Shown: piece by piece, positions 16,654 to 40,860 of the stretch | Layout of the letters: every line of letters begins with the position of its first letter | Numbering within the stretch: the first letter of the stretch is position 1 | Source of the DNA: Polaromonas sp. | GTDB lineage: Bacteria; Pseudomonadota; Gammaproteobacteria; Burkholderiales; Burkholderiaceae_C | Direction of reading: 5' to 3' | DNA: 64,000 bases | Assembly (NCBI RefSeq): GCF_012927455.1 | Contig: NZ_JABBPE010000016.1 | Location: forward strand, 186,001 to 250,000 | Notes under the pieces: generated by a model | Told to the model about the DNA's origin: nothing | Database searches by the model: none | What the model saw: the letters and a program-made list of their open reading frames with translations, nothing else | Position numbers and translations under genes: made by a program

Positions 16654-17958
16654 GTGCCATCCGCCTCCGTCCTTGTCGCCACACCGCAGTCCATGCACTT
16701 TGCAAAGGCGCTGCCGTTGCGCAGCGGCGCATCGATTCGCGCCTATGACCTGAGCTTTGAAACCTACGGCCAGCTCAATGCCGACAAATCCAACGCGGTG
16801 CTGATCTGCCACGCGCTCAACGCCTCGCACCATGTGGCGGGCGTGTACCTCGATAAGTCCGGCCAGATTCTGGCCAAGTCCGAAGGCTGGTGGGACACCA
16901 TGATTGGCCCCGGCAAGCCGGTGGACACCGAACAGTTTTTCGTCATCGGCGTCAACAACCTGGGCTCCTGCTTTGGCTCCACCGGGCCGATGCAGACCAA
17001 CCCCGACACCCATGAGGTTTACGGCGCCGACTTTCCGGTCGTCACGGTGCAGGACTGGGTCGATGCGCAGGCCCGCTTGCTTGATGCCCTGGGCATCAAG
17101 ACGCTGGCAGCCGTCATGGGCGGCAGCCTGGGCGGCATGCAGGCCCTGAGCTGGACGCTGCAGTACCCGCAGCGCGTGCGCCACGCCATCGTCGTCGCCA
17201 GCGCGCCCAACCTGACGGCCGAAAACATCGCCTTCAACGAAGTCGCGCGCCGCGCCATCGTCACCGACCCGGACTTTCACGGCGGCCATTTTTACCGCCA
17301 CGGCGTGCTGCCCAAGCGCGGCCTGCGCATCGCCCGCATGATTGGCCACATCACCTACCTGAGCGACGACGTGATGAACGAGAAGTTCGGCCGCCGGTTA
17401 CGGGCCCCCACGCTCCCCGCTGCGCGTGGTTCGCTGCCCCCCGAGGGGGCGCTGCGCCTGCGGCCCGGCGAAGCCGGTTCCGCGGCCCCTGCTTGGGAAC
17501 GCGGGGACAGCTCGGCGCTGGCGGGTGCTGTCCCCACGCTGCCCGCTGCGCGTGCTTCGCTGGCAGCACCTTTCAAGTTTTCCACGCAAGATGTGGAGTT
17601 CGAAATTGAAAGCTATCTGCGCTACCAGGGCGACAAGTTCGCCGAGTACTTCGACGCCAACACCTACCTCTTGACCACGCGCGCGCTCGACTACTTTGAC
17701 CCGGCCAGCGAGTTTGGCGGCAACCTGAGCCGCGCCCTGGCCGAGGCCAGCGCTGGATTTTTACTCGTGAGCTTCACCACCGACTGGCGTTTCGCGCCGT
17801 CGCGCAGCCGCGAGATCGTCAAGGCGCTGCTCGACAACCAGCGCGATGTGAGTTACGCGGAGATTGACGCGCCCCATGGTCATGATGCATTTTTGCTCGA
17901 TGACCCGCGCTACATGGGCGTGGTGCGCTCCTATTTTCAGAGCAAGGTGGCGCCATGA
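16654..17958 (+). CDS. metX: Homoserine O-acyltransferase MetX, carrying an in-frame repeat insertion
   Basis: Alpha/beta-hydrolase enzyme that acylates homoserine in methionine biosynthesis; acetyl or succinyl donor cannot be told by eye. It starts at a GTG ([16 protein letters not shown]) and has 434 residues, about 55 more than usual. The nucleophile is Ser158 in [10 protein letters not shown]. The acid lies in [16 protein letters not shown] and the His in [13 protein letters not shown]. Residues about 249-305 are an insertion between MNEKFGRRL and [16 protein letters not shown], segments that are contiguous in relatives. The insertion is one full copy and one partial copy of the GC-rich hairpin element, read in frame. 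It overlaps metW by four bases and is preceded by a SAM-II-type riboswitch. Confidence 0.93.
17405..17503 (+). repeat. GC-rich three-hairpin element inside metX
   Basis: Reference copy for this family. Hairpin 1: CCACGC (17408-17413) with GCGTGG (17424-17429). Hairpin 2: GCCCCC (17436-17441) with GGGGGC (17445-17450), loop CGA. Hairpin 3: inner stem CCGGC (17465-17469) with GCCGG (17473-17477), loop GAA, and outer stem GCGG (17460-17463) with CCGC (17480-17483). It adds residues including [18 protein letters not shown] without breaking the frame. Confidence 0.92.
17531..17565 (+). repeat. Partial second copy of the hairpin element in metX
   Basis: TCCCCACGCTGCCCGCTGCG and the following CGTGCTTCGCTGGCAGCA repeat the first hairpin of the element at 17405, giving [14 protein letters not shown]. 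Hairpins 2 and 3 are absent. It indicates either tandem insertion or local duplication followed by loss. Confidence 0.8.
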
Positions 17959-18563
17959 GCAGCCTGCCTGACCTGACTGCGCAGCCCACGCCCGACCAGC
18001 TGTCGATTGCCCGGCTGGTGCCGCGCGGCGCCCGCGTGCTGGACCTGGGTTGCGGCACCGGCGAGCTGCTGGCCCATCTGATTGCCGAGCGCGGCTGCTC
18101 GGGCTATGGCGTCGAGATCAACGACGCCAATGTGCAGGCCTGCGTGGCACGCGGCGTCAATGTGATCCAGCTCAACTTGGAAGAAGGCCTGACGCTGTTC
18201 GGCGACAACTCGTTTGACGTGGTGCTGCAAATCGACACGCTGCAACACCTGCGCAACGCCGAAACCATGCTGGCAGAGACCGTGCGCGTGGGCCGCATCG
18301 GCATCGTCGCCTTTCCCAATTTCGGCCACTGGCCGAACCGGCTGGCGGTGCTGCGCGGCCGCATGCCGGTGACCAAGGTGCTGCCCTACCAGTGGTATGA
18401 CACGCCCAATATCCGCGTCGGCACACTGCAGGATTTTGAGGCGCTGGCGCTGCAAAACCGCCTGCAAATCCTCGACTCGTTTGGCTTGCAGGACGGCCGC
18501 GAAATCCGCTTCTGGCCGAACGCGCGCGCCAGCCGTGCGGTGTTCAAATTGCAGCGCGCCTGA
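17955..18563 (+). CDS. metW: Methionine biosynthesis protein MetW
   Basis: SAM-dependent methyltransferase-fold protein that accompanies MetX in many proteobacteria and supports its activity. The 202-residue product has motif I ([15 protein letters not shown]), then [14 protein letters not shown] and the MetW block [20 protein letters not shown]. Its ATG overlaps the metX stop (ATGA), so the pair is translationally coupled and shares the SAM-II leader. Confidence 0.95.
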
Positions 18564-18712
18564 CGCCAGCTGCGTAATCCCTGCGCAGCAGCGCGGTGCT
18601 TGCAGGCTGCGCTTGGCGCTGCTAATATTTAGCCATCGGGATTTCAGCCTCCCGACTCCTCACAGATAGACGGTGTCCCGTCCAAGCGCTGGCAACTGAC
18701 TTGGAGCTTTCC

Positions 18713-19618
18713 GTGGACACCTCTGACATTTCTGTTCCTTCCCCTTTCTTTTCCATTTCCCTTTCTATTTCCCCGCAAGAACTCGCAGCCGGCATCGGAC
18801 GCGCCGACGCGCCCCTGCTGCTCGACGTGCGGCGCGAGGAGACGTTTCTTGCCAGCCCGCATTTGCTGGCAGGCGCACGGCGTTGTGCGCCTGAACACGT
18901 GACAGCTTTTGCGGCCACGCAGCCGCAGCAGGAAGTCGTTGCGTATTGCGTCCATGGTCACAACGCCAGCGAAGATGCCGTGGCCACGTTGCGCGCAGCG
19001 GGCTGGAGCGCGCGCCTGCTGGCTGGCGGCCTGGCGGGCGGCGAGGACGGCGTCGATACGCCGCAAGACATCGCCGCGTGGCGCGCGCAGCATTTGCCGA
19101 TGATGCGCAAGCGGCCCGACCTGGGCGTGAGCGGCGAACAGCGCTCGCGCTGGATCACCCGCGAGCGCCCCAAGATCGACCGCATCGCCTGCCCGTGGCT
19201 GGTACGCCGTTTCATCGATACGCGCGCCGAGTTCTTCTACGTCCCCACCGCCAAGGTGTTTGAAGAGGCAGCGCGCCTGGGCGCGGTGGCCTACGACATA
19301 CCCGGCGCGCCGGTCTCGCATGAGGGCGAACTGTGCAGCTTTGATACCTTGCTGAGTGCGTTTGAGTTGACCGATCCGGCCCTTCAGACCTTGGCCCGCA
19401 TCGTGCGCGGCGCCGACACCGACCGGCTAAGCCTGGCAGCGCAGTCGGCCGGCCTGCTGGCCTTTTCGCTGGGCCTGTCAGGGCTGCACGCTGGCGACGA
19501 CCACGCCATGCTGCAGGCGGCCCTGCCACTTTATGACGCGCTTTACGCCTGGTGCCGCAGCGCGCAAGATGAGCCCCACAGCTGGATGCCCGAGACCATG
19601 ATGGGAGCGGTGCGATGA
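18713..19618 (+). CDS. chrB: Chromate resistance protein ChrB with N-terminal rhodanese domain
   Basis: The start is taken as the GTG at 18713 (MDTSDISVPS), with TTGGAG six bases upstream, giving 301 residues. Residues about 20-125 are a rhodanese-like domain with Cys79 in AYCVHGHNAS where the active-site loop should be. The C-terminal part (from about 150) is the ChrB domain: KIDRIACPWLVRRFIDTRAE, then GELCSFDTLLSAF and a late GLHAGDDHAMLQAALPLYDA. Full ChrB proteins have a different N-terminal domain and act in chromate sensing. The rhodanese fusion may instead link to thiol or sulfur handling. The stop overlaps the chrA start by four bases. Confidence 0.85.
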   Translation: MDTSDISVPSPFFSISLSISPQELAAGIGRADAPLLLDVRREETFLASPHLLAGARRCAPEHVTAFAATQPQQEVVAYCVHGHNASEDAVATLRAAGWSARLLAGGLAGGEDGVDTPQDIAAWRAQHLPMMRKRPDLGVSGEQRSRWITRERPKIDRIACPWLVRRFIDTRAEFFYVPTAKVFEEAARLGAVAYDIPGAPVSHEGELCSFDTLLSAFELTDPALQTLARIVRGADTDRLSLAAQSAGLLAFSLGLSGLHAGDDHAMLQAALPLYDALYAWCRSAQDEPHSWMPETMMGAVR

Positions 19619-21018
19619 CGCCAGCGACCCCCATGTCTCCAAGTACTCTTGAGCAAGCGTCCGCGCAGCCCTCCGCCGTATCTTTCCGCGAGGCCTTGCG
19701 CTTCTGGCTGCTGCTCGGCTTCATCAGCTTTGGCGGTCCGGCCGGGCAGATTGCCATCATGCACCGCGAGCTGGTCGAACGGCGCCGCTGGGTCTCGGAA
19801 AAACGCTTTCTGCACGCGCTCAATTTCTGCATGGTGCTGCCCGGCCCCGAGGCGCAGCAGCTGGCCACCTACCTGGGTTGGCTGATGCACCGCACACGCG
19901 GCGGCGTGCTGGCGGGCACGCTGTTCGTGCTGCCCTCGCTGGTGCTGCTGATCGCTCTGAGCTGGATTTACATGGCCTTTGGCCAGCAGCCGCTGATCGC
20001 CGGGATCTTTTACGGCATCAAGCCGGCGGTGGCGGCAATCGTGTTGCACGCGCTCCATCGCATTGCCCGGAAATCACTGGGAAATCCTTTGTTAACCCCC
20101 GTTCCATGGGTGCTGGCGGCTATGAGTTTTATAGCAATCTGGGCCTTGCAGTGGCCTTTTCCAGTGGTGGTTTTGAGCGCCATGTTGATCGGTGCAGTGC
20201 TGGCGCGCATCGCCCCGGACGCCCTGGTGCACGGCGGCGGCCACGCGGCGGCGGGCAGCGCGCCGCACCCAGCTGCGCTGATTGATGACGACACGCCGAC
20301 GCCGCCGCACGCGCGGTCCAAGGGCTCGCGTCTGGCGACGGTGCTGGCGCTAGGCGCGGTGCTCTGGCTGCTGCCGATGGCCGCGTTGCTGCTAAGCCAG
20401 GGCTGGAGCGGCACGCTGACGCAGATGGGCTGGTTTTTCACCAAGGCCGCGCTGCTGACCTTTGGCGGCGCCTACGCGGTGCTGCCTTATGTGAACCAGG
20501 CCGCAGTCGAGCATTACCAGTGGCTGACTACGGCGCAAATGATGGATGGCCTGGCGCTCGGTGAAACCACGCCGGGACCGCTCATCATCGTGGTGGCTTT
20601 TGTCGGTTTTGTCGGCGGCTGGACCCGGCAGGTGCTGGGCCCCGACGCGCTGTTTCTGGGCGCCGCGCTGGCCGCCTGCGTGGCGAGCTGGTTCACCTTT
20701 TTGCCGTCCTTCATCTTCATTTTGGCGGGCGGTCCGTGGGTCGAATCAACGCGCGGCAACCTGCACCTGACCGCGCCGCTGGCCGCGGTGACGGCTGCAG
20801 TGGTCGGCGTGATTGCTAACCTTGCTCTGTTTTTCATAGCGGCTATCGCATATCCGGCGGTTGTTACAGGTAATTTTGACACCAGACCCGACGTGATTGC
20901 ACTGACGCTGGCCGCGCTCGCCGCGCTGGCCCTGTGGCGCTTCAAGTGGGGCGTGATACCGGTGATTGCTGCCTGTGCGACGGCCGGCCTGCTGCTGCGC
21001 TGGTTCGGCCTGGCGTAA
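19615..21018 (+). CDS. chrA: Chromate efflux transporter ChrA
   Basis: CHR-family membrane transporter that exports chromate, 467 residues, of the two-domain (long) type. The first half opens with FWLLLGFISFGGPAGQIAIM and has EKRFLHALNFCMVLPGPEAQ. The second half repeats the pattern with FFTKAALLTFGGAYAVLPYV and MMDGLALGETTPGPLI. The internal duplication is typical. The ATG overlaps chrB (ATGA), showing one transcript. A sulfate-permease gene follows 70 bases later; sulfate and chromate share chemistry, which makes the grouping sensible. Confidence 0.94.
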   Translation: MTPATPMSPSTLEQASAQPSAVSFREALRFWLLLGFISFGGPAGQIAIMHRELVERRRWVSEKRFLHALNFCMVLPGPEAQQLATYLGWLMHRTRGGVLAGTLFVLPSLVLLIALSWIYMAFGQQPLIAGIFYGIKPAVAAIVLHALHRIARKSLGNPLLTPVPWVLAAMSFIAIWALQWPFPVVVLSAMLIGAVLARIAPDALVHGGGHAAAGSAPHPAALIDDDTPTPPHARSKGSRLATVLALGAVLWLLPMAALLLSQGWSGTLTQMGWFFTKAALLTFGGAYAVLPYVNQAAVEHYQWLTTAQMMDGLALGETTPGPLIIVVAFVGFVGGWTRQVLGPDALFLGAALAACVASWFTFLPSFIFILAGGPWVESTRGNLHLTAPLAAVTAAVVGVIANLALFFIAAIAYPAVVTGNFDTRPDVIALTLAALAALALWRFKWGVIPVIAACATAGLLLRWFGLA

Positions 21019-21088
21019 ACCTGGCGTCGACCAGGCGCAGTCAAAGCGCAGCGGCAGACCAGCCTGCGCACCGCCCGCCGCCCGCGTT

Positions 21089-23101
21089 ATGCTCAAGCCG
21101 ATGCAAGCCCCCGTCCCCCGCGCCGCCGCGCCCTCGCCGCCCCTGCTGGAGCGCCTGTTGGGCGGCTGGGTGCGGCAGGTTTCGCCGCTCACCCTGCGCG
21201 CCGATGCGCTGGCCGGTTTGCTCGGCGCGGTACTGGTGCTGCCGCAGGGCATTGCCTTTGCCACGCTGGCCGGCCTGCCTCCGGAATATGGCTTGTACAC
21301 CGCCGTGGTGCCGTGCATCATCGCCGCGCTGTTCGGCTCAAGCTGGCATGTCATGTCGGGCCCCACCAACGCCAATTCGCTGGCGCTGTTTGCCATGCTT
21401 TCGCCGCTGGCGCTGGCCTTCAGCCCGCTTTACATCCAGCTGGCGCTGGCCGTCACCGTGATGGTCGGCGTCATGCAGTGGCTGATTGGCGCCTTGCGGC
21501 TGGGCGCGCTGGCCAACTTCATCTCGCCGGCGGTGCTGTTTGGTTTCACCTCAGGCGCGGCACTGCTGATTGCAGTGCATGCGCTGCCCGACTTGCTGGG
21601 GCTCGGCGCTGCGCCCGCGCACAGTGCCGCTGCCGTGCTGCGCCATGTGGGCACGCAGCTCGGCTCGGTGCAAGCAGCGGCGCTGGCGGTGGCGGCCATC
21701 ACCGTCGTGGTCGCGCTGGGGGTGCGCCGCCTGCGCCCGCACTGGCCGCACATGCTGCTGGGCCTGCTGGTGGCCAGTACGCTGACCTGGCTGTGGGGCC
21801 AGACCATGAACGCGAATCTGGCGGCGGCTTTGAGTGCCAACGGCGCCACGCCGATTACCCAGCCCTTTCCCGCGCTGCGCCTGGTCGGGCAGATCCCCAC
21901 GCCGTGGCCGCGCTTTGAGCTGCCGCGCGTCAGCTGGGCACAGGCCATCGAGTTGCTGGGGCTGGCGTTCGCGCTCACCATCGTCGCGCTCGGACAGGCC
22001 ATCTCGATTGCCAAGATGGTCGCCCTGCGCTCAGGCCAGCGCATAGACGCCAACCGCGAGTTCCGCGGTCAGGGCCTGTCCAACATCGTCGGTGGCTTCT
22101 TCTCCTGCTATGTGTCGTGCGGCTCGATGAACCGCTCCATGCCCAACTTCGAAGCCGGCGCGCGCACCCCGCTGGCCTCGGTTTTCTCCGCGCTGCTGCT
22201 GTTGGCGCTGGTGGCGCTCAGCGCGCCGCTTCTGGCGCAAATCCCGATGGCCGCGCTGGCCGCGCTGCTGCTGCTGGTGGCGCTGGCGCTGCTGGACGGC
22301 AAGCGCTGGCGCCAGCTATACACCCTGAGCCGCGCCGACTTCAGCGTGGCGCTGGCCACCGTGGTCGCCACCGTCACCATACGGCTGGAAATTGCCATCT
22401 TGCTCGGCATGATCCTGTCGCTGATGTCTTTTTTGTACCGCACCTCGCACCCCGCCATGCGCACCATGGGCTTTGACAGCCGCGCGCCGGGCCGGCAGTT
22501 TGTAGTGATCGACGATGACGCCCGCCAGCTGTTAGGCGAGGATGGAGCAAGCCTGGAGGCGCCAGTACCTTCGCAAGCTCGAGCCGCAGGACCGGCTTTG
22601 CCGGACTGCAGGCGGGCGGCCCCCTCGGGGGGCAGCGAACCACACGCAGTGGGGAGCGTGGGGGCTAACTTCCTTCCGGAATGCCCCCAGCTCAAGCTCT
22701 TGCGAATGGAAGGCGAGGTCTACTTTGGCGCGACCCAGCATGTGGCCGACCATTTGTACGCGCTGCGAAGCCAGCCGCAACCGCAAAAGCATTTGCTGGT
22801 GATGGGCAAGAGCATGAATTTCATTGACCTGGCCGGTGCCGAGTTGTGGGAGGCTGAACTTGCCGCGCGCCGCGCCATGGGCGGGGATCTGTACTTTCAC
22901 CGGCCACGGCCCGAGGTGATCGCCATGTGGCGCAAAACCGGCTTCACCCGCGTACTCGGCCCCGAGCACCAGTTTCCCGACAAGGGCACCGCGATTGCCA
23001 CCATCTTTAAAAAGCTCGATCCCGAGATCTGCCGGCACTGCACGGCGCGCATTTTCTGGGAATGCAAAACCGCACCAGGTGCCGACAAGCGCGAGGACTG
23101 A
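21089..23101 (+). CDS. SulP family sulfate/anion permease with STAS domain and repeat insertion
   Basis: Inner-membrane anion transporter of the SulP family. I start at the ATG at 21089 (MLKPMQAPVPRAA); 21101 is also possible and no ribosome-binding site decides it. The product is about 670 residues. The membrane part contains LPQGIAFATLAGLPPEYGLY and MSGPTNANSLALFA. The C-terminal STAS domain starts near CPQLKLLRMEGEVYFGATQH and continues to FIDLAGAELWEAE. Between them, residues about 485-527 are an insertion from the GC-rich hairpin element in reverse orientation ([19 protein letters not shown]). Placed at a domain linker, it may be tolerated. It lies 70 bases after chrA; sulfate, molybdate or dicarboxylate are possible substrates. 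Confidence 0.9.
   Translation: MLKPMQAPVPRAAAPSPPLLERLLGGWVRQVSPLTLRADALAGLLGAVLVLPQGIAFATLAGLPPEYGLYTAVVPCIIAALFGSSWHVMSGPTNANSLALFAMLSPLALAFSPLYIQLALAVTVMVGVMQWLIGALRLGALANFISPAVLFGFTSGAALLIAVHALPDLLGLGAAPAHSAAAVLRHVGTQLGSVQAAALAVAAITVVVALGVRRLRPHWPHMLLGLLVASTLTWLWGQTMNANLAAALSANGATPITQPFPALRLVGQIPTPWPRFELPRVSWAQAIELLGLAFALTIVALGQAISIAKMVALRSGQRIDANREFRGQGLSNIVGGFFSCYVSCGSMNRSMPNFEAGARTPLASVFSALLLLALVALSAPLLAQIPMAALAALLLLVALALLDGKRWRQLYTLSRADFSVALATVVATVTIRLEIAILLGMILSLMSFLYRTSHPAMRTMGFDSRAPGRQFVVIDDDARQLLGEDGASLEAPVPSQARAAGPALPDCRRAAPSGGSEPHAVGSVGANFLPECPQLKLLRMEGEVYFGATQHVADHLYALRSQPQPQKHLLVMGKSMNFIDLAGAELWEAELAARRAMGGDLYFHRPRPEVIAMWRKTGFTRVLGPEHQFPDKGTAIATIFKKLDPEICRHCTARIFWECKTAPGADKRED
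22577..22665 (-). repeat. GC-rich three-hairpin element inside the SulP gene
   Basis: Reverse-orientation copy relative to metX. On the minus strand hairpin 1 is CCACGC with GTGTGG (one G.U pair), hairpin 2 is GCCCCC with GGGGGC, and hairpin 3 is CCGGC/GCCGG with loop AAA and outer stem GCAG/CTGC. The reading frame of the host gene is kept. Confidence 0.92.
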
Positions 23102-23126
23102 AAAGCCCCGCGCCGACTGCGCGGAG
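23101..23126 (-). terminator. Terminator-like hairpin downstream of alkB
   Basis: Read on the minus strand, CCGCGC and GCGCGG (23108-23124) form a 6-bp GC stem with a 5-base loop, followed by GGGCTTTT. It sits between the convergent stops of the SulP gene and alkB. Confidence 0.5.
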
Positions 23127-23780: not shown

Positions 23781-23788
23781 ACGCGGCT

Positions 23789-24869: not shown

Positions 24870-24923
24870 TATGGCTGCAGCCCAATAACCACGGGCGTAA
24901 GCAGCTATTAAATACATAGCAAT
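24870..24923 (+). repeat. AT-rich interspersed repeat, copy 2
   Basis: The clearest full copy: GGCTGCAGCCCAATAACCAC, then GGGCGTAAGCAGCTATTAAA, then TACATAGCAA. It lies between the cueR stop and the DapA-family gene start, ending 11 bases before the cueR stop. Confidence 0.9.
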
Positions 24924-28244: not shown

Positions 28245-28298
28245 AAGGCTGCAGCCTAATAAGAGAGGGCTTAGCTAGCTATTAAATTCATAGTAACT
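28245..28298 (+). repeat. AT-rich interspersed repeat, copy 3
   Basis: AAGGCTGCAGCCTAATAAGA followed by TAGCTAGCTATTAAATTCAT and AGTAAC; a diverged copy. It is located just downstream of copZ. The rest of 28226-28466 shows no gene I can support. Confidence 0.8.
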
Positions 28299-29057: not shown

Positions 29058-29229
29058 TGGGTACTCCCTCCCCCAGAAGCAGTAAACCGACCGATTGTTT
29101 GGCTGCCCGGGAACGCCTGCAGTCGTACACACCATACAAGTAGATACAGAAGCAGAAGCGATAACAGGGATGATTTAGGCTTTTAGCTCTGCTTTCGACA
29201 CGCATTTCATAGCCGCTGCCCAGACAGCG

Positions 29230-29260
29230 CGGGCGCAGAATGCTATTTAATCAATAGCAA
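29230..29260 (+). repeat. AT-rich interspersed repeat, copy 4 (short)
   Basis: GGGCGCAGAATGCTATTTAA followed by TCAATAGCAA: only the 3' hairpin half of the family. It lies in the 258-base gap between the HEPN-like gene and psd, where nothing else is seen. Confidence 0.65.
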
Positions 29261-31080: not shown

Positions 31081-31173
31081 GAAGGATAGCGGCGTTCGCC
31101 ACAGGCGTACAGTAGCCGTTGGCCCAGCCTAGCGCTGATGTGTTTTCTGCCCTTCCATCTTCGGAGTCTTTTC

Positions 31174-32829
31174 ATGAACGCCCGACTACCCAGCTCGCAA
31201 ATTTTGCAAGGTTCGCAACGCGGCACTACCGACGCTACCGGCGCTTCCGACATTGACGCCAGCCCGTTCAACACCGCCCAGGCCCTGTCACAGATCACGG
31301 CACAGTGGGACGGCGACATCGTCCAGCAGCTGAGCGACTACATCGCCATTCCGGCCAAATCGCCCATGTTCGACAGCGACTGGGCGCAGCACGGCTACAT
31401 CGACACCGTGGTGCGCAATGCGGCGGCCTGGGTGGAGGCGCAGAAAGTCGAGGGGCTGACACTGGAAATTGTGCGGCTGGAGGGGCGCACGCCGCTGCTG
31501 TTTTTCGAGATTGCGGCCTCGTCAGGCGGTGGACAAGCACATGCCGCAAGGCACGCGGGGCCTGCCCCCTTGCCAGCCGGGGCCGTGGAACCGGCTTTGC
31601 CGGGCCACAGGCGCAGCGCCCCCTCGGGGGGCAGCGAACCACGCGAAGCGGGGAGCGTGGGGGCCACAGTCTTGTTCTATGGCCACCTTGACAAGCAGCC
31701 CGAATTTACCGGCTGGCGCAGCGACCTGGGCCCGTGGACGCCGAAGTACCAGGACGGCAAACTCTATGGCCGGGGCGGCGCCGACGACGGCTATGCGGTC
31801 TACGCCAGCATTGCGGCGGTACAGGCGCTGAAAAGCCAGGGCGTGGCGCACCCGCGCATTGTCGGCATGATTGAAACCTGCGAGGAAAGCGGCTCGCGCG
31901 ACCTGCTGCCCTATATCAACGCGCTCAAAACGCGGCTTGGCGAGGTTGCGCTGGTGGTGTGCCTGGACTCGGGCGCCGGCAATTACGACCAGCTCTGGCT
32001 GACCACCAGCCTGCGCGGCAACGCGGCCGGCGTGCTGAAGGTCGAGGTGCTGACCGAAGGCATCCACTCGGGCGACGCCAGCGGCTTGGTGCCGTCGAGC
32101 TTTCGCATCCTGCGCCATCTGCTGGACCGGCTCGAGGACAGCCAGACCGGGCGCCTGCTGCCGCCAAGTTTTCACTGCGAAATTCCTCCGGACCGCCTGG
32201 AGCAGGCGCAGGCGACAGCAAAAATTCTGGGTGACGAGATTTACAAACGCTTTCCATGGGCGCACTACGACTGCGAAGGCGCGGGCAGTTTTACCCTGCC
32301 GACGACCACCGACCCGGTCGAGGCGATGCTGAACCGCACCTGGCGGCCGACGCTGAGCGTGACCGGCGCCGAGGGTTTTCCGGCACTGAAAGACGCCGGC
32401 AATGTGCTGCGCCCTTACAGCGCCTTCAAGCTGTCGCTGCGCTTTCCGCCGCTGATTGACGCCGGCGCCGCAGTGCAGGAACTGAAAGCGCTGCTGGAAG
32501 ACAACGCGCCTTATCAAGCCAAGGTGACGTTTGAAAGCAGCGGCGGCGCAAGCGGCTGGAACGCGCCGGGCGCCGCGCCTTGGTTTGAAAGCGCCCTCAA
32601 CGACGCGTCGCAGAGCTTTTTTGGCGCGCCCTGCGGCACCATAGGCCAGGGCGGCACGATCCCGCTGATGGGCATGCTAAGCCAGGGCTTTCCCCAGGCG
32701 CAGATGATGGTTTGCGGCGTGCTTGGCCCCAAGAGCAACGCGCACGGCCCCAACGAGTTTTTGCATGTGCCCTACGCCAAGAAGCTGACCGCTGCAGTCG
32801 CCCAGGTGATCGCGCGCATGCCGGGCTGA
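31174..32829 (+). CDS. M20 family metallopeptidase with repeat insertion
   Basis: Di-zinc peptidase/deacylase of the M20 family, 551 residues. I choose the ATG at 31174 (MNARLPSSQILQ), with GGAG seven bases upstream. Zinc-site blocks: YGHLDKQPEFTGW (His, then Asp), YGRGGADDGYAVY (bridging Asp) and ETCEESGSRD (catalytic Glu pair). The final His is in NAHGPNEFLHV. Residues about 122-164 are an insertion from the GC-rich hairpin element ([20 protein letters not shown]), directly before ATVLFYGHLDKQ, the first metal-site strand. The stop codon lies inside a 62-bp perfect palindrome. Substrate is unknown. Confidence 0.9.
   Translation: MNARLPSSQILQGSQRGTTDATGASDIDASPFNTAQALSQITAQWDGDIVQQLSDYIAIPAKSPMFDSDWAQHGYIDTVVRNAAAWVEAQKVEGLTLEIVRLEGRTPLLFFEIAASSGGGQAHAARHAGPAPLPAGAVEPALPGHRRSAPSGGSEPREAGSVGATVLFYGHLDKQPEFTGWRSDLGPWTPKYQDGKLYGRGGADDGYAVYASIAAVQALKSQGVAHPRIVGMIETCEESGSRDLLPYINALKTRLGEVALVVCLDSGAGNYDQLWLTTSLRGNAAGVLKVEVLTEGIHSGDASGLVPSSFRILRHLLDRLEDSQTGRLLPPSFHCEIPPDRLEQAQATAKILGDEIYKRFPWAHYDCEGAGSFTLPTTTDPVEAMLNRTWRPTLSVTGAEGFPALKDAGNVLRPYSAFKLSLRFPPLIDAGAAVQELKALLEDNAPYQAKVTFESSGGASGWNAPGAAPWFESALNDASQSFFGAPCGTIGQGGTIPLMGMLSQGFPQAQMMVCGVLGPKSNAHGPNEFLHVPYAKKLTAAVAQVIARMPG
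31564..31664 (-). repeat. GC-rich three-hairpin element inside the M20 peptidase gene
   Basis: Reverse orientation relative to metX. On the minus strand hairpin 1 is CCACGC with GCGTGG, hairpin 2 is GCCCCC/GGGGGC, and hairpin 3 is CCGGC/GCCGG with loop AAA and outer stem GTGG/CCAC. That outer stem differs from other copies at both pairing partners. Confidence 0.92.
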
Positions 32830-32876: not shown

Positions 32877-33113
32877 CGCGCCGACCGGCTGGTCAACCCG
32901 GCGGGCAGCCGCGCCTTTGCAAAAAAAGCGGCGGACTCGCCCGCCGTGAAACCGGGCACGGTCACCAGCCCATGCTTTGACGGGCTCTATCACGAGGTTT
33001 TCAACGAGCTGGACGCCGCGCCGGTGCTGGCAGCACTGAAAACCTGGCTGGATGCCAGATTTTTAACAAGAAATGGCTGTAGACCAATGAAATCGGGCAC
33101 TATTAGCTATTAA
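32877..33113 (+). pseudogene. Alpha/beta hydrolase (monoacylglycerol lipase type) C-terminal remnant
   Basis: The reading frame gives RADRLVNPAGSRAFAKKAAD, then SPCFDGLYHEVFNELDAAPV and AALKTWLDARF. It matches the end of monoacylglycerol-lipase-like hydrolases: a catalytic Asp in GxDrlV and catalytic His in GLYHEvFNE. The nucleophile half is missing and the sequence starts right at the palindrome. The final codons and stop come from an AT-rich interspersed repeat. It is not expected to be functional. Confidence 0.8.
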
Positions 33114-33124
33114 ATTCATAGCAA
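33073..33124 (+). repeat. AT-rich interspersed repeat, copy 5
   Basis: ATGGCTGTAGACCAATGAAA, then TTAGCTATTAAATTCATAGC. It overlaps the tail of the lipase remnant and lies 23 bases from the end of the YidB remnant. Confidence 0.85.
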
Positions 33125-33146
33125 TCTAAGTTTGCATCAGCGTCCG

Positions 33147-33383: not shown

Positions 33384-33384
33384 C

Positions 33385-33484: not shown

Positions 33485-33502
33485 GGCAGCTGGCCGTTCG
33501 AG

Positions 33503-34042: not shown

Positions 34043-34127
34043 GGGTCGACAATCAGGAATATGGGGGTTGTGGAGCTTGCGGCCTCATTGGACCCTGAGC
34101 TTGACGGCAAATGCAAGCCGCGAAAAT

Positions 34128-34475: not shown

Positions 34476-34521
34476 GGGGTTCCTTTTGAAATAGGGATTA
34501 TTCAGGCGGCCGGCTGGTGGT

Positions 34522-35292
34522 TCAGGCCGGTGTGATCAGGGTCAGCAGCGCCAGGCAGGCCAGCGGCGCGGTTTCGGCGCGCAGGATGCGCGGGCCCAGC
34601 GTAACGGGAACAAAACCGCTGGCGAGGGCGGCGGCTTCTTCGGCGGCGCTCAGGCCGCCTTCCGGACCACTCAAAAACGTCAATGCGCCGCTGCTGGCAA
34701 CGGCCTGGCTGAGCGGGCGGGTGCCGTCTTGCAGCGACAGCAGCAGCCGCGTACCGGCCCCGCTGGCGGGCGTCTGGCCGGTCTTCAGCCAGTCGGCCAG
34801 GTTGCTGACGTCGTGAATCAGCGGCAGCCGGTTGCGGCCGCATTGCTCGCACGCGGCGGTGGCGGCGGCGCGCCAGTGCGCCAGCTTCTTGTCGGCGCGC
34901 TCGCCTTTGAGGCGCAACACGCTGCGCTCGCTCATCAGGGGCTGGATGCTGGCGGCACCCAGCTCGGTGGCTTTTTCGATCAGCCAGTCCATGCGTTCGT
35001 TGGTCGGCATGACCACCGCCAGATGGATGGCGCGGCCGGCTTCGCGCGCGCTGGCACTGTAGGCACCTACGAGGACCTGGACCTCGCTGCGGCCCATGCG
35101 CTCGACCGTGGCCTCGAATTCGCCTTCGCTGACGGGTTGGCCACTGCCCTGACCATTACCCTGGCCATTGAACAGCGTGAGGGGCGCGCCGGGCTGCAGA
35201 CGCAGCACCTGAACATGGCGCGCGGCCTGCTCGGGCAGGCTGACGGAATGGCCGGGCACCAGGGCCATGTCGGCGTAAAAACGCGGATTCAT
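34522..35292 (-). CDS. rsmE: 16S rRNA (uracil-1498-N3) methyltransferase
   Basis: SPOUT-fold methyltransferase of 256 residues that modifies U1498 of 16S rRNA. An N-terminal PUA-like part begins MNPRFYADMALVPG. Knot-region motifs are FLSGPEGGLSAAEEAAAL and LGPRILRAETAPLACLALL. The mid-protein MPTNERMDWLIEKATELGA is also diagnostic. A repeat of the AT-rich family separates it from amgK upstream. Confidence 0.95.
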   Translation of the reverse strand: MNPRFYADMALVPGHSVSLPEQAARHVQVLRLQPGAPLTLFNGQGNGQGSGQPVSEGEFEATVERMGRSEVQVLVGAYSASAREAGRAIHLAVVMPTNERMDWLIEKATELGAASIQPLMSERSVLRLKGERADKKLAHWRAAATAACEQCGRNRLPLIHDVSNLADWLKTGQTPASGAGTRLLLSLQDGTRPLSQAVASSGALTFLSGPEGGLSAAEEAAALASGFVPVTLGPRILRAETAPLACLALLTLITPA

Positions 35293-35337
35293 GAACGCGG
35301 GCTCATGCGCTCGGCCCGGCTGTAATGGCTTTTTGAA

Positions 35338-35391
35338 AATGCTATTAAATTAATAGCTGCTTGCGCCCGTGGTATATGGGCTAGAGCCGTA
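35338..35391 (-). repeat. AT-rich interspersed repeat, copy 6
   Basis: Reverse orientation: GCTATTAAATTAATAGCTGC, then TTGCGCCCGTGGTATATGGG and CTAGAGCC. It lies between the amgK stop and the rsmE start. Confidence 0.88.
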
Positions 35392-35398
35392 TTTAGCA

Positions 35399-36655
35399 TC
35401 AAAACGTGTAACCCACTCGGGTTTCGTTGCCTTCGATCTGGTCGAGCAGCACCATCAGCGGCCCGAGCTGGCGGTAGCGCGCGGCGGTGTTGCGCGCGTA
35501 CTTGATGAAGCGCGGTGTGTCGGCCAGGTATTTGGGCTTGCCGTCGCGCAACGTCAGGCGCGCAAAAATGCCCAGCACCTTGAGGTGGCGCTGCAGGCCC
35601 ATCCACTCGACGGCACGGTAAAACTCGCCGAAATCATCGCCGACCGGAAGCCCGGCCTTGCGCGCCTTTTGCCAGTAGCGCACGCTGATATCGAGCACGA
35701 AATCTTCTTCCCAGGTCAGGAAGGCGTCGCGCATCAGGCTGGCAATGTCGTAGCTGATCGGGCCGTAGACGGCGTCTTGAAAGTCTAGTACCCCCACGCT
35801 TCCCACTGCGTGTGGTGCGCTGCCCCCCGAGGGGGCCGCCCCGCCTGCAGTCCGGCGAAGCCGGTCCTGCGGCCGGAACTTGGAGGGGTCGGGAGCCGTC
35901 TCCTTTAATCCTGCAGTATGGAAGGCGCCGACCGCCACGGCGCTGCTGCCGCTTTCGCCGGCAGCATTGGACACCATCAAATTGCGGGGCATGAAGTCGC
36001 GGTGCACATAAACGCGCGCGCCGCCCAGCGACTGCAGGTTGCTGGCCTTGATCTGCGTGAACATGGCGTTGAGCTTGTCCAGCAGCCCGCCATCGAGTGC
36101 CAGGCCGCGGTGCTGGGCGACATACCAATCCGGGAACAGGGCCAGTTCGCGCGACAGCAACGCGTCGTCGTAAGGCGGCAGCACGCCGGGGCGCGAGGCG
36201 AGCTGCCAGCGCACCAGGGCATCGACCGCGTCCAGGTAGAGCTCGGTATGGGCGGCGCTGGGCTGGGCGATGGCATCGACGGCAGCCGGCGGCGCGATCA
36301 GGTCGAGCATGGTCTGGTTGCCCAGGTCGCTCAGCAGCATGAAGCCGAGCGACTGGTCCCAGGCCAGCACGCGCGGCGCGTTCAGACCGGCTTGCAGCAT
36401 CAGGCCGGCGACGCGTACGAAAGGCTGGCAGTCTTCTTGGGCCGGTGGTGCGTCCATGATGATGCGGCTGGCTGCGCCGAGGCCTGCAGCGGCGCCAGCA
36501 TCAATCCTGAAATAGCGGCGAAAGCTGGCATCGGCCGAAGCCAGCCGCAGGCTGCCGGTTTGCAGGTCATGCTGGTGCGCCATGTCGGCCAGCCAGCGGT
36601 CAAAGGCACTGGCGCGCGCCGGGTCAGCCCAGACGATGGAAAGAGAAGTGGTCAT
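35399..36655 (-). CDS. amgK: N-acetylmuramate/GlcNAc kinase AmgK-like phosphotransferase with repeat insertion
   Basis: Aminoglycoside-phosphotransferase-fold sugar kinase. AmgK phosphorylates MurNAc or GlcNAc at the anomeric position for peptidoglycan recycling, with MurU as next step. The 418-residue product is about 50 longer than usual. Motifs: FRRYFRIDAG (P-loop analogue), IIMDAPPAQED, the catalytic loop HRDFMPRNLM (His218, Asp220) and the Mg-binding VLDFQDAVYGPISYD. Between the last two, residues about 240-289 include the hairpin element (TAGGAAPSGGSAPHAVGSVG). In relatives these motifs are only a few residues apart. A murU gene is present at 61.0 kb, not adjacent. It is divergent from lptD, the arrangement known for amgK. 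Confidence 0.85.
   Translation of the reverse strand: MTTSLSIVWADPARASAFDRWLADMAHQHDLQTGSLRLASADASFRRYFRIDAGAAAGLGAASRIIMDAPPAQEDCQPFVRVAGLMLQAGLNAPRVLAWDQSLGFMLLSDLGNQTMLDLIAPPAAVDAIAQPSAAHTELYLDAVDALVRWQLASRPGVLPPYDDALLSRELALFPDWYVAQHRGLALDGGLLDKLNAMFTQIKASNLQSLGGARVYVHRDFMPRNLMVSNAAGESGSSAVAVGAFHTAGLKETAPDPSKFRPQDRLRRTAGGAAPSGGSAPHAVGSVGVLDFQDAVYGPISYDIASLMRDAFLTWEEDFVLDISVRYWQKARKAGLPVGDDFGEFYRAVEWMGLQRHLKVLGIFARLTLRDGKPKYLADTPRFIKYARNTAARYRQLGPLMVLLDQIEGNETRVGYTF
35790..35876 (+). repeat. GC-rich three-hairpin element inside amgK
   Basis: Plus-strand orientation, opposite to the host gene. Hairpin 1 is CCACGC with GTGTGG (one G.U pair), hairpin 2 is GCCCCC/GGGGGC with loop CGA, and hairpin 3 is CCGGC/GCCGG with loop GAA and outer stem GCAG/CTGC. 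It is nearly identical to the SulP copy. Confidence 0.92.
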
Positions 36656-36768
36656 GGTTGTCGGGCTGCCGCCGGGGCGGGCGCCTGGCGCTGGTTTGGC
36701 AAGGTGGGGGTGGGATGGATGGTCATGGATAATCGGGCCTGATTTTACAAACGGGTTATCTCATACAA

Positions 36769-39261
36769 ATGATGCGCCGCGCATCCTCCTCGCCTTTTAT
36801 TCTTTCCCCGGTCGCCCTGGCCGTCTGCAGATTGGCATTGCTCGCCATGCTGGGACTGGCCTGCGCCGGGATCGGGCGCGCCCAGGCGCAGGCGGCGCCG
36901 GCTGACACTGCGCCGCTGCCGGGTTCACCGGCGTCCGCAGCTGCAGCCGCACCGGCGGGTCCGGCCCAGCTCAAAGGCTCGGCCCTGCTGGCCGAGCAGC
37001 CCCCCGCTCTGCAGGACAGCCAGCTGCCGACCTTTGTGTTCGGCGACCGGCTCTCGGGACGCCCCGATCTGGAAACCGTGATCGACGGCAACGCCGAGTT
37101 GCGCCGCGGCACGACCTCGCTGCGCGCCGACCGTATTGAGTATTACCAGCCCGATGACCTGATGAAAAGCCGCGGCCATGTGCGCATCAACCGCGCCGGC
37201 AACCGCTTTGAAGGCCCCGAGCTGGAGCTCAGGCTGGACCGCTTTGAAGGCTTTTTCATCGCGCCCCGTTACCGCTTCCTCAGCAATGGCGGGAATGGCC
37301 AGGCCGAGCGCGTTGACTTTGTCGATGACAAGCACTTCACGGCGCGCCGCGTCCGGTACACCACCTGCGAAAGAGACGACGAAGCCAGCTGGAACCCGGC
37401 CTGGGACCTGCGCGCCAGCCGTATCGATTTCGATCTGGACAACGACGTCGGCGTGGCCACTGGCGCGGTCGTGCGCTTCAAGAAGGTGCCGATTCTGGCC
37501 TTTCCCGTCGTCAGTTTTCCGCTCAGCGACAAGCGCAAGTCGGGTCTGCTGCCGCCCACCTTCGGACTGGGCTCCGTCAACGGCGCGGAATACCGGCAGC
37601 CCTATTACTTTGACATTGCGCCCAACCGCGACGCGACCTTCTCACCGGCTATCCTGAGCAAACGCGGCATTGATCTGGCCGGCGAGTTCCGCTACCTGGA
37701 GCCGACCTACAAGGGCGAGCTGCGCGCCAATCTGCTGGCGGCCGACAAGCTGCGCAACCGTGACCGCTGGTCTTACAGCCTGCAGCACAGCGGAGCGATC
37801 GACAGCGGCATACCCGCCGTGGGCGGCTTCGGCCTGGCTCTCAATTTGAACCGCGTCAGCGACAACGACTACTGGCGCGATTTCCCGCTGCCCGTTGTGA
37901 GCGGGCTTTCGTCCTCGCCGCGACTGCTGCCGCAGGACGCCACCCTGTCGTGGGGCAAAGGTTTCTTTTCCTCAACGCTGCGCACGCTGAAGTGGCAAAC
38001 GCTGCAGGATGCGACGTCGCCCATCGTTCCGCCCTACGACCGGCTGCCTCAGTTGACCGCCGCCTACACGCGGGTGGACGCGCCGCTGGCCGGTTTGGGC
38101 AACGGCTTTGACTGGTCGCTTGACAGCGATTTCACGCGGTTTTCCGCCGATAGCGCGCTGACGAACCCGCCGGGCAGCAATCAGCGCAATGGCAACCGCG
38201 CCTTCGGCCGGGCACAGGTCAGCCGCCCCTGGCTCTGGCCGGCCGGCTACATCACGCCGAAAGTGCAGCTGCACGCCACCAGCTACCAATTTGAGTCGCC
38301 GCTGCCCAATGGCGCGAACTCGGCATCGCGCGTGGTGCCAACCTTCAGCCTGGACAGCGGGCTGCAATTCGAGCGCGACGCCAGCCTGTTTGGCCGCAAC
38401 CTGACCCAGACGCTGGAACCACGCGCCTTTTATGTGCGCACGCCGTTTCGCGACCAAAGCCAGCTGCCCAACTACGACTCGGGCGCCAACGACTTCAACT
38501 TTGCCACGGTGTTCACCGAGAACGCCTTTGTCGGCAACGACCGCATTTCAGACGCCAACCTGCTGACGCTGGGCCTGACCTCGCGCCTGCTCGATCCGGC
38601 GACCGGCGCCGAGGCGGTGCGCTTGGGCGTGGCCCAACGCCTGCGCTATGAAGACCAGAAGGTGACCCTGCCCGGCGCCCTGCCGGCGACCGACCGCGTC
38701 AGCGACCTGCTGGTCGGCGCGTCGGTCAACTGGGTGCCACAATGGACTTTTGACAGCACCGTGCAATACAACCCGAAGATCAGGCTGTCCGAACGTGCCT
38801 CCTACGGCGTGCGCTACAACCCCGGCAACTACCGCACCATCAGTGCCGCGATACGCCGCCAGCGCAATGTCAGCGAGCAGGTGGACATCGGCTGGCAGTG
38901 GCCCATTAACGATTTATGGGGCGACAAGGGCCGCGAACTGGGCGCCGGTCAGGGCCAGGGCGGTGGGCGCTACTACAGCGTGGGCCGCCTGAACTACAGC
39001 ACGCTGGAGAAAAAACTGGTCGACGCAGTCATAGGCGTAGAGTACGACGGCTGCTGCTGGATTGGCCGCGTGGTGCTGCAGCGCACACAAAACAGCGGCA
39101 CGAGCGTCGGTGCGGCGACCAGAATTTTGTTCCAGCTCGAACTGGTCGGTTTTTCCCGTGTCGGCGCCAGCCCGCTAGAAACCCTCAAGTCCAACGTTCC
39201 GCGCTACCAATACCTGCGTGACAACATCATTTCCCCCAGCCGCTTCACCACCTATGACTAA
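36769..39261 (+). CDS. lptD: LPS-assembly protein LptD
   Basis: Outer-membrane beta-barrel that inserts lipopolysaccharide into the outer leaflet, with 830 residues. An N-terminal signal peptide (LALLAMLGLACAGIGRAQAQ) is followed by the OstA/jellyroll domain (LRADRIEYYQPDDLMKSRGH) and a long barrel. The C-terminal segment contains VEYDGCCWIGRVVLQRT and ends in the beta-strand-like FQLELVGFSRVG. The cysteine pair near the C-terminus fits known inter-domain disulfides. Two ATGs in a row open the gene. The last eight bases overlap surA. Confidence 0.95.
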   Translation: MMRRASSSPFILSPVALAVCRLALLAMLGLACAGIGRAQAQAAPADTAPLPGSPASAAAAAPAGPAQLKGSALLAEQPPALQDSQLPTFVFGDRLSGRPDLETVIDGNAELRRGTTSLRADRIEYYQPDDLMKSRGHVRINRAGNRFEGPELELRLDRFEGFFIAPRYRFLSNGGNGQAERVDFVDDKHFTARRVRYTTCERDDEASWNPAWDLRASRIDFDLDNDVGVATGAVVRFKKVPILAFPVVSFPLSDKRKSGLLPPTFGLGSVNGAEYRQPYYFDIAPNRDATFSPAILSKRGIDLAGEFRYLEPTYKGELRANLLAADKLRNRDRWSYSLQHSGAIDSGIPAVGGFGLALNLNRVSDNDYWRDFPLPVVSGLSSSPRLLPQDATLSWGKGFFSSTLRTLKWQTLQDATSPIVPPYDRLPQLTAAYTRVDAPLAGLGNGFDWSLDSDFTRFSADSALTNPPGSNQRNGNRAFGRAQVSRPWLWPAGYITPKVQLHATSYQFESPLPNGANSASRVVPTFSLDSGLQFERDASLFGRNLTQTLEPRAFYVRTPFRDQSQLPNYDSGANDFNFATVFTENAFVGNDRISDANLLTLGLTSRLLDPATGAEAVRLGVAQRLRYEDQKVTLPGALPATDRVSDLLVGASVNWVPQWTFDSTVQYNPKIRLSERASYGVRYNPGNYRTISAAIRRQRNVSEQVDIGWQWPINDLWGDKGRELGAGQGQGGGRYYSVGRLNYSTLEKKLVDAVIGVEYDGCCWIGRVVLQRTQNSGTSVGAATRILFQLELVGFSRVGASPLETLKSNVPRYQYLRDNIISPSRFTTYD

Positions 39262-40669
39262 CTACCGCTTTTTTACCCGACCTGTGCCGGCCCGCTCACG
39301 CACCGCCGCGCTGGCGCTGCTGCTTGCGCTACCCCTGCTGGGGGCGCAGGCGCAAGGACTTAAACCGTCCGGCCTGCTGCGGCTGCCTGATGCGGCCGCC
39401 AGCGCGCCTGTGGCGGGGCGCGCCAGCACCGCCACGCAACGGCCGGCTGATTTCATCATCGCCATCGTCAATTCGGAGCCGATCACCAACAACGAACTGC
39501 GCACCAAGCTGATTCGCACCGAGCAGCAGATCCTGCAACAGGGCACTGCGCTGGCGCCGCGCAGCGAACTGGTGCCGCAACTGCTGGAGCGCCTGATCAG
39601 CGACAAGGCGCAGCTGCAAATGGCGCGCAGCTCGGGCGTGCGTGTGGACGAGAACGCGGTGGAAAACGCGGTGCAGGGCGTCGCCCGACAAAACCAGATC
39701 ACGGTGGACGAGTTGCGCCGCCGCCTCAAGGCCGACGGGATTGATTACAACCAGTTCCGCGCTGACTTGCGCGACGAACTGCTGGTCAGCCGCCTGCGCC
39801 AACGCGAGGTCGAGCCCCGCGCGACCGTGAGCGAGCAGGACATCGATCAGTTTTTACGTGACCAGGAAGGCGGCACCGACCTGTCTTCACTGGCCCTCAA
39901 TCTGGCCGAGATTCTGGTGGCGGTACCCGAAAACGCCAAACCGGACCAGGTCGCGGCGCTGCAGGCCAAAGCCCAGCAGGTGCTGGAGCGCGCGCGTGCC
40001 GGCAGCGACTTCGCGGCGCTGGTCACCGAGTTTTCCAGCTCGGCCAGCCGCAGCAACGGCGGGCAGATGGGCTTGCGCGAGGCGGAGCGTTATCCGCCGC
40101 TGTTTGTCGAGGCGACGCAAACACTGCGGGTTGGCGGCTTGGCCGGTCCGGTGCGCAGCGGCGCCGGTTTTCACATCTTGAAGGTGGTCGAAAAAAGGCA
40201 GGCTGGCATGCCTGGCCTGGCGGTCACGCAAAGCCACGCGCGCCACATCCTGTTGCGGCTAACGCCCCAGCTGACGGAAGCCGCCGCTGTCGAGAAACTG
40301 GCTGGCTTCAAAAAGCGAATCGCGGCCGGCCAGGCTGACTTTGCCGCGCTGGCGCGCGAAAACAGCGAGGATGCATCGGCCAAGGAAGGCGGCGATCTGG
40401 GCTGGACCAATCCGGGGGTGTTTGTGCCAGAGTTCGAAAAGGTTATGAACGGCCTGGGCCCCAACCAGATTTCCGACCCGCTGGTATCGCGTTTTGGCGT
40501 GCACCTGGTGCAGTTGCTGGAGCGCCGCGAAACCCAGCTGTCGGCGCGTGACCAGCGCGAGATGGCGCGCGGCGTGCTGCGCGAGAAAAAACAGAATGAA
40601 GCCTATGCGCTGTGGGCGCAGGAAATACGCGGCCGCGCTTATGTGGAAATGCGCGACGCGCCGCAGTAG
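39254..40669 (+). CDS. surA: Periplasmic chaperone/peptidyl-prolyl isomerase SurA
   Basis: Periplasmic chaperone that escorts outer-membrane proteins, including LptD. I start at the ATG at 39254 (MTNYRFFTRPVP), which overlaps the lptD stop; it gives 471 residues and a signal peptide ending in LPLLGAQAQ. The N-terminal SurA domain begins with DFIIAIVNSEPITNNELRTK. Two parvulin domains follow: one around ILVAVPENAKPDQVAALQAK, the second around HARHILLRLTPQLTEAAAVE to GDLGWTNPGVFVPEFEK. The lptD-surA-rsmA order is conserved. The pdxA gene often found before rsmA is absent. Confidence 0.95.
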   Translation: MTNYRFFTRPVPARSRTAALALLLALPLLGAQAQGLKPSGLLRLPDAAASAPVAGRASTATQRPADFIIAIVNSEPITNNELRTKLIRTEQQILQQGTALAPRSELVPQLLERLISDKAQLQMARSSGVRVDENAVENAVQGVARQNQITVDELRRRLKADGIDYNQFRADLRDELLVSRLRQREVEPRATVSEQDIDQFLRDQEGGTDLSSLALNLAEILVAVPENAKPDQVAALQAKAQQVLERARAGSDFAALVTEFSSSASRSNGGQMGLREAERYPPLFVEATQTLRVGGLAGPVRSGAGFHILKVVEKRQAGMPGLAVTQSHARHILLRLTPQLTEAAAVEKLAGFKKRIAAGQADFAALARENSEDASAKEGGDLGWTNPGVFVPEFEKVMNGLGPNQISDPLVSRFGVHLVQLLERRETQLSARDQREMARGVLREKKQNEAYALWAQEIRGRAYVEMRDAPQ

Positions 40670-40673
40670 ATAT

Positions 40674-40860
40674 GGCCCCCACGCTTGTCGCTTCGCGTAC
40701 TGCGCTGCCCCTCGAGGGGGCTGAGGGCCGCGGCTCCGAGCCTGCCGGCGCAGGCTTGGACGGCACGAAGAGCGGTTGCGTCTCGCAGTCGTGCGGCCTG
40801 CAAGGCCTGCGCCTGCGGCCCGGCAAAGCCGGTTCCGCGGCCCCTGCTTGCGAATGCGGG
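40674..40860 (+). repeat. GC-rich hairpin element between surA and rsmA (diverged, with extra insert)
   Basis: It starts GCCCCCACGCTTGTCGCTTC and keeps the hairpin 2 core CCCCTCGAGGGGG. An extra stretch of about 80 bases follows, and it ends with hairpin 3 (CCGGC, AAA, GCCGG; outer GCGG/CCGC). Hairpin 1 has lost two pairs. This is the one intergenic copy and lies in the 241-base surA-rsmA gap; no gene is seen in the gap. Confidence 0.85.

Follow-up and report, generated by a model that had tools for sequence, protein, structure and literature searches.

Short palindromic repeats of several kinds are known in bacteria, and they set the terms on which we describe a GC-rich element of Polaromonas sp. 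(assembly GCF_012927455.1), a unit of about 94 nt whose head consists of two hairpins and whose tail is a third, which occurs several times in a 64-kb stretch of contig NZ_JABBPE010000016.1 (positions 186,001 to 250,000; this whole stretch of 64,000 nucleotides is called the window below). The closest described system is BRE, the Beta-proteobacterial repeat element (Hot et al. 2011, PMC3110155). According to the accessible text of that paper, BRE is about 75-91 bp long with a mean GC content of 69%, is hosted by Bordetella and Comamonadaceae (29 copies in Polaromonas JS666), and forms variable-number tandem arrays that are mostly intergenic, with some lying wholly within coding sequences. Compared by description, our element shares the size, high GC content, host families, tandem habit and occasional coding residence of BRE. 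Its unit types in the own genome are 84 and 94 bp long, the latter slightly above the 75-91 bp of BRE, and GC is 0.68-0.82 in own matches above 72 bits and 0.74-0.78 in copies from Alcaligenaceae, which measure 81-87 bp. Among the open-licence papers searched on repeats of Comamonadaceae, of Polaromonas, Acidovorax and Variovorax, and of Rhodoferax, the BRE paper alone treats this element, and neither its motifs nor the name BRE led to another one; the accessible text of the BRE paper, unlike the present data, comes without a fold, a junction rule or a frame analysis. The element is very probably BRE. The kind of element is already known, and the new content is a rule that places it at gene edges, together with its open reading frames.

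Other systems share single traits with it. The repetitive extragenic palindromic sequences (REPs) of E. coli, as presented in the accessible part of PMC3733652, are single palindromes of 14-40 nt that lie close to the ends of upstream open reading frames (ORFs), between co-directional or convergent genes, in pairs or clusters and in a minority of cases within ORFs; ribosomes stall at those that lie no more than 15 nt from a stop codon (PMC12306157, citing Liang 2015, accessible text). Our element is likewise palindromic, present in many copies, mainly extragenic and close behind ORF ends, it shares with REPs the co-directional or convergent neighbours, the clustering and the minority of copies within ORFs, and 71 of its 106 intergenic copies occupy the REP-like position at most 15 nt past the upstream stop. 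It differs in having three hairpins over 94 nt instead of one palindrome of 14-40 nt, in a consensus that carries neither a GTAG nor a CGTC tag, and in the Y1 transposase loci examined, which it does not flank. Rickettsia palindromic elements are inserted in frame in functional protein genes (via the accessible part of PMC3733652), and an earlier note on this DNA had likened our element to them in behaviour while holding its sequence to be different. The likeness of behaviour stands as regards in-frame residence in functional protein genes; the taxon is another one, and residence in genes is the minority state of the present element. The palindromic amphipathic repeat coding elements (PARCELs) are palindromic DNA coding for tandem amphipathic protein repeats of 25 residues in ORFs without assigned function (PMC2996958, accessible text). 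They share with our element the coding of tandem protein segments by palindromic DNA and differ from it in that the peptide seen here is mostly of the Gly/Ala/Ser/Thr/Pro type and lies in enzymes and a transporter.

Most intergenic copies abut the stop codons of co-oriented genes

Searching the own genome at the DNA level yielded 60 matches. Alignment A1 comprises 31 own copies, i.e., 29 of the 30 loci of this search and two window stretches, with each of the four full window copies present once and locus L013 left out as unframed by the motif search. The covariance model R1 was built from A1. A second model, R2, was built from 15 Alcaligenaceae copies, three from genomes of family f4 and twelve from Achromobacter; we infer f1 to be Comamonadaceae and f4 to be the family of Achromobacter. 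At E <= 0.01, R1 finds 157 matches in the own genome, of which 53 score at least 72 bits, with a gap of 10 bits below them. To these 53 own copies we added 80 that score highly in eight relatives (G004, G018, G023, G024, G025, G031, G032, G036), a non-random sample taken from the top matches listed. Copies were assigned to genes by two rules, the first of which classifies by codon scores learned from 27 long ORFs of the window.

By the second rule, 106 of the 133 copies are intergenic: 82 lie behind a co-oriented gene, 21 are reversed and 3 are divergent. Of the 106, 71 begin -1 to +7 nt past the stop of the co-oriented gene, against 17.2 expected under uniform placement in the same spacers. 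Among copies with a gene 3' end on their left, 25 of 28 own copies and 46 of 54 in the relatives abut the stop (3.6 and 13.6 expected), and 9 of 12 such copies in Achromobacter obey the rule at 4-9 nt, some of them at orthologous sites. These results are reinforced by a count that uses no gene caller: across the 133 copies, TAA, TAG or TGA in any frame is found 133 times in total at offsets -1 to +7 (29, 15, 25, 4, 7, 12, 23, 2 and 16 times, respectively) and 0-7 times at any one of the offsets 8 through 39.

A third rule (score 20, offsets -1 to 8) classes 77 of the 133 copies as stop-abutting and reveals preferred junctions at -1 (17 copies), 0 (9), +1 (10), +5 (18) and +7 (8). In class -1 the stop shares the first base of the element (TGA or TAG overlapping CCCCC), in class 0 it stands directly before the element, and in class +5 it is followed by five bases, often ATRTG. 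The left flanks of the 53 own copies prefer ATATG (A-5 in 32, T-4 in 30, T-2 in 31, G-1 in 27), a preference that is not independent of the stops. The 20 upstream genes that were tested, of 26 candidates, are of diverse families (such as carbamoyltransferase, sigma-54, KH-domain GTPase, AzlD and SelR), and all of them have Pfam domains. At the opposite orientation, a start codon was recognised a few nt after ..GTGGGGG in 7 of the 19 reversed or divergent junctions printed (C12:368354, L192, L194, L200, L218, L235, L240), the rest being less clear; peptides that we take to be ruvC-, trpG-, atpG- and hslO-like are encoded at junctions of these seven.

Copies inside genes are the minority. They number 14 of 53 in the own genome (12 sites, identical by both rules) and 11 or 13 of 80 in the relatives by the first and second rule, 9 being common to both; L179 and L220 are inside by the first rule only and stop-abutting by the second, whereas L203, L225, L247 and L249 are inside by the second only. 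A further 12 of the 80 copies in relatives are ambiguous, having coding flanks on one strand without an open path. The intragenic bias of the earlier note, which saw four of five copies inside genes, is therefore an effect of the window. In the copies studied, the 5' end of the head lies flush with a gene edge, mostly no more than 7 nt past a same-strand stop and less often reversed near a gene start, and about a fifth of the copies are inside genes.

We think it fairly likely that this is a non-autonomous, REP-like palindromic element of 3' untranslated regions (UTRs), very probably BRE, and that proteins tolerate it in frame within their loops. It seems that the same folded sequence can either occupy the ends of genes or serve as translated filler. 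Behind stop codons, the GC-rich structured 3' UTR would slow terminating ribosomes and block 3' exonucleases, an action at the RNA level that is predicted because E. coli REPs near stops stall ribosomes. In reversed copies, ribosomes may bind at the GUGGGGGC end. Copies in genes would be translated as Gly/Ala/Ser/Pro-rich linkers in loops.

Distribution, modules and mobility

The earlier note had proposed a covariance-model scan, and strong matches were indeed found well beyond the window. In a panel of relatives, R1 matches 36 of 61 genomes, that is, 36 of the 37 of the genus (own genome included; none in G021) and 0 of the 24 from other families of the order; at least 25 matches are present in 27 of the 37. 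In an order-wide sample of 399 genomes, with 10 candidates scored per genome, it matches 15 including the own one (11 of family f1, 2 of f4 and 2 of f44). Named Achromobacter records contained all 13 stretches that fit a pattern derived from the f4 copies, and R2 matched 25 of 151 f4 genomes, 9 of which carry at least 29 matches.

The unit is not uniform. A second type of 84 nt joins this head of hairpins 1 and 2 to a different tail, CTTGGGGCGGCCCGGC, and accounts for many of the weaker R1 matches, and a third, longer head-tail arrangement is found between surA and rsmA in the window and at L082. Since units combine heads with differing tails and arrangements, the family is a mosaic of modules. 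An 84-bp period recurs in 8 tandem arrays of the own-genome R1 list, further arrays being spaced otherwise. The variable arms of the 84-bp tails form at least 6 pairs in 8 of 46 cases (mean 3.4 versus 2.4 when shuffled), so that arm pairing is real in some copies and not general. Four loci (L095, L096, L102, L106) have 84-bp-type tails in which one loop is conserved and the 9-bp arms are wholly different yet perfectly paired; the two arms of a tail may be rewritten together by some process. An array in an f4 genome (G134, L291 1372-1972) consists of five units with an exact 129-nt period.

When left and right flanks were compared for target duplications, matches of at least 4 nt did not exceed chance, with two 3-nt signals (3 and 6 observed versus 1.0 and 1.64 expected), and no terminal inverted repeats were seen in the consensus; in both respects the element differs from miniature inverted-repeat transposable elements (MITEs). 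HUH transposition likewise proceeds without target duplication. We infer that the element could spread by copying in trans without target duplication, by an enzyme of the HUH type, combined with tandem gain and loss. The genus has a gene for a Y1 transposase of about 240 aa (MARLPRLTVPGYPHHIIQRGN..; L031 and many of L260-L285), usually with one Y1 match per genome and often with a GGGTCAG-type motif within about 100 nt 3' of it, which looks like a domesticated REP-associated tyrosine transposase (RAYT).

The same observations could arise from a selfish, functionless element that inserts near stops (e.g., at stop-ATRTG) and survives where it is harmless, its hairpins being kept for a transposase or replication fork that reads single-stranded DNA. 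The left-flank preference for ATATG, the uneven junction classes, the lack of target duplications of 4 nt or more, the tandem arrays and the presence or absence of copies between near relatives all fit this explanation. However, the bias of orientation with the upstream gene (82 of 106) and the similar position in Achromobacter require an oriented target, and none of 32 Y1 loci has the element beside it. We regard a selfish origin of the pattern as possible, if rather unlikely. Doubtful, in our opinion, is a more elaborate version in which the element is a mobile gene-edge device: it would target the stop junction (stop-ATRTG or stop-CCCCC), act in sense as a regulator of translation termination and mRNA 3' ends and in reverse as a ready-made ribosome-binding site, while lengths often divisible by 3 would spare gene edges and loops.

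Copies inside genes occupy protein loops in frame

All four window genes that host a full copy (metX and genes for a SulP-family transporter, an M20 peptidase and an amgK-like kinase) have empty orthologues in the same genus. The earlier note had named shared residues in relatives of distant genera lacking the element as an argument against its reading; within the genus, the orthologues have plain short loops instead. Empty sites were found in G032, G025 and G004 for SulP, in G018, G031, G032, G025, G436 and G023 for the M20 peptidase, and in G018, G032, G025 and G004 for the kinase (three of these aligned). Distant genera were covered through the best solved structure for three of the four proteins, and in each case the alignment breaks at the insert: between query residues 248 and 313 for MetX (2pl5, by phmmer), 126 and 172 for the M20 peptidase (3pfe), and 227 and 284 for the kinase (3csv).

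The same loops are occupied in other species. The MetX insert is in sense in several of them, including G032, G024, G018 and G036, whereas those of G015 and G010 appear to be a decayed antisense form; inserts are also found in the M20 peptidase of G004, G024 and G027, in the kinase of G436 and G027, and in SulP of G018, which has four 84-bp units plus a truncated fifth. The SulP gene of G018 (L158 7417-7729) is a case of a coding tandem repeat in a transporter gene, with four R1 matches and a number of units that differs between species. The aligned lengths differ by multiples of 3 (121 to 277 in MetX, 102 to 228 in M20, 126 and 270 in SulP). The clearest gain is the 84-bp insert in the M20 gene of G004, absent from G025 (92.7% identical in the shared region), G032 and G436.

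For the 23 copies that are intragenic by both rules, all 12 in sense are read in frame +0, and the 11 in antisense are read in -0 (7), -1 (3) and -2 (1). Over 130 phased copies, stops were counted once in +0, never in -0, 6 times in +2, 10 in -1, 45 in +1 and 48 in -2. The common intragenic frames, +0 and -0, are thus the nearly stop-free ones; frame +2 is nearly as open, is unused, and is richer in Cys and basic residues. The encoded peptide is mostly Gly/Ala/Ser/Thr/Pro. The called intragenic copies are thus in frame in both orientations, as had been claimed, with the reservation that the callers require an open in-frame path, so that gene-breaking insertions would escape. The claim that the element inserts in frame holds for its residence and overstates the act of insertion, because the insert of G004 measures 84 bp, a length divisible by 3 that is also the period of 8 arrays in the own genome. 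In-frame copies would owe their survival to the frequent unit lengths (84 and 102 bp), which are divisible by 3, and to the near absence of stops from one frame per orientation.

Could these copies be positively selected peptide modules, i.e., flexible linkers or interaction segments, as proposed for PARCELs? The repeated occupation of the MetX, SulP, M20 and kinase loops in several species by differing unit types, and the prevalence of one frame per orientation, speak for it. Yet the insert is missing from many orthologues, a single site seems to take either orientation and different peptides, some of the inserts appear decayed (G015, G010, G027), and the commonest frames are those with the fewest stops (1 and 0 of 130), though +2 (6 of 130) is unused. 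Selection for the peptide is in our estimation improbable.

The fold is conserved while the sequence drifts

The hairpin 1 of the earlier note, CCACGC with GCGTGG, fails in its two outermost pairs, which are broken in 10 and 12 of the 31 copies of A1. The hairpin that is conserved is GC..YY-CRC-TKC-GYG-T-RR..GC, its outer GC/GC being GG/CC in some copies, and it fits 98.6% of the cells in A1. For the whole structure in the 31 own copies, cells changed on both sides of a pair number 46, versus 11.3 in shuffles that ignore descent and at most 5 in slid versions, over which hairpin 1 is favoured by having been picked after the alignment was seen. In hairpin 3, compared across families, the loop and inner stem are preserved and the outer arms change in both partners, with 30 such cells versus 6.7 in the same kind of shuffle. 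The earlier note had described joint changes in the outer stem of hairpin 3; covariation stands for these arms and for the alternative hairpin 1, but hairpin 2 is near-invariant, with no pair changed on both sides. RNAalifold, run on the own copies, independently finds nearly the same fold. The fold is conserved while the sequence drifts, as the earlier note maintained. The strong covariation and the sense orientation past stops would also suit a riboswitch-like cis-regulatory RNA that binds a ligand or a protein, a reading which we consider highly improbable given 20 upstream genes of many families, the many copies per genome, the translation of some copies within genes, and no Rfam family matching the window copies at gathering score.

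Copies in the window

The window contains four full copies and one composite. The five places of the earlier note are right, and only the one between surA and rsmA is not a full copy. In metX, which encodes homoserine O-acetyltransferase (16654..17958, + strand, PF00561), a full sense copy lies in frame at 17404..17497 (+, R1 101.7 bits), and the same insert holds a decayed second head, or hairpin 1, at 17531..17576 (+, 67% match to the head). The SulP-family transporter gene (20966..23101, +; PF00916 at residues 77-465 and STAS at 575-668) has an antisense copy at 22572..22665 (-, 97.4 bits), which falls between the transporter domain and the main STAS match. Antisense copies also lie in the M20 peptidase gene (31138..32829, +, PF01546) at 31571..31664 (-, 108.1 bits) and in the APH-family kinase gene (35399..36655, -, PF01636; the name amgK is that of the earlier note) at 35790..35884 (+, 96.4 bits).

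The composite copy lies behind surA (39218..40669, +, PF09312 and PF00639). Directly 5' of it are the surA stop TAG and ATATG (40667..40674, +), one of the two commonest junction types, class +5. Its head module (hairpins 1 and 2) at 40675..40760 (+, R1 55.2 bits) begins 5 nt past the stop, and a separate hairpin-3 module follows at 40796..40852 (+, R1 49.5 bits; R2 35.5 bits at 40793-40854). This junction is also occupied in G025, G032 and G436. The downstream rsmA ORF is called at 40776..41741 (+, PF00398), and its true start is probably the ATG at 40911, to judge from the sequence.

Motif counts single out the same places. With up to 3 mismatches, hairpin 2 occurs 6 times in the window versus 0.28 expected, in the five copies and at 49563, which is not one, and hairpin 1 occurs 6 times versus 0.28 expected, in the five copies and the decayed metX head; hairpin 3 is less distinctive (12 versus 5.76). 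R2, made from Alcaligenaceae copies only, matches the five places with E-values no higher than 4.3e-4 and has no other match in the window up to E = 0.01.

Two other features were noted. The sole Rfam match in the window, above gathering score, is a chrB-b candidate cis-regulatory RNA at 18636-18692, which is unrelated to the element. Another repeat family, with units of about 50 nt, GCCCAATA..CGGGC..AGCTATTAAATTCATAGCAA, has seven window copies (14939-14988, 24873-24922, 28247-28296, 29211-29260, 33075-33124, 52791-52840 and 61785-61834).

Discussion

Several points weigh against a REP-like 3'-UTR element that is BRE, and they concern its identity, its fold, its lengths and its mobiliser. The identity with BRE is drawn from description, not from sequence, and 18 lexA loci (lexA is a published Bordetella BRE site), not one of which is known to come from the B. 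pertussis group, gave no match above 18 bits. For the fold, cross-family slid versions reach 10 and 11 double-change cells, and the number of pair types is ordinary (14 versus 13.0 in own copies, 11 versus 9.6 across families). In the Alcaligenaceae copies, RNAalifold pairs the leading CCCCC with the GGGGG of hairpin 2 and nests hairpin 1 within, so that the three-hairpin fold is not the sole possibility. The single-strand folding energy is no better than that of shuffles (z -0.02 to -1.38), and hairpin-templated repair or common descent can also yield covariation among related repeats. Some tandem periods are not divisible by 3 (91 at C15:85327/85418, 68 and 100 at C12:394940-395168). As mobiliser, RAYT was rejected: Y1 transposase matches occur in 40 of 41 genus genomes, including those with 0-2 copies of the element (G021, G003, G033, G013), and at E <= 0.05 the element stands beside 0 of the 32 loci that were fetched from among the Y1 matches.

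Taken as a REP-like element at gene ends that protein loops tolerate, the finding joins subjects that are usually separate, namely REP-like elements at stops, in-frame palindromic inserts in proteins, and covarying folds. Because copy number is high in many genomes of the genus and in some of f4, effects on expression could touch dozens of genes per genome. The natural occupied and empty alleles of MetX, the APH-family kinase, the M20 peptidase and SulP offer a ready test of how far such loops tolerate an insert.

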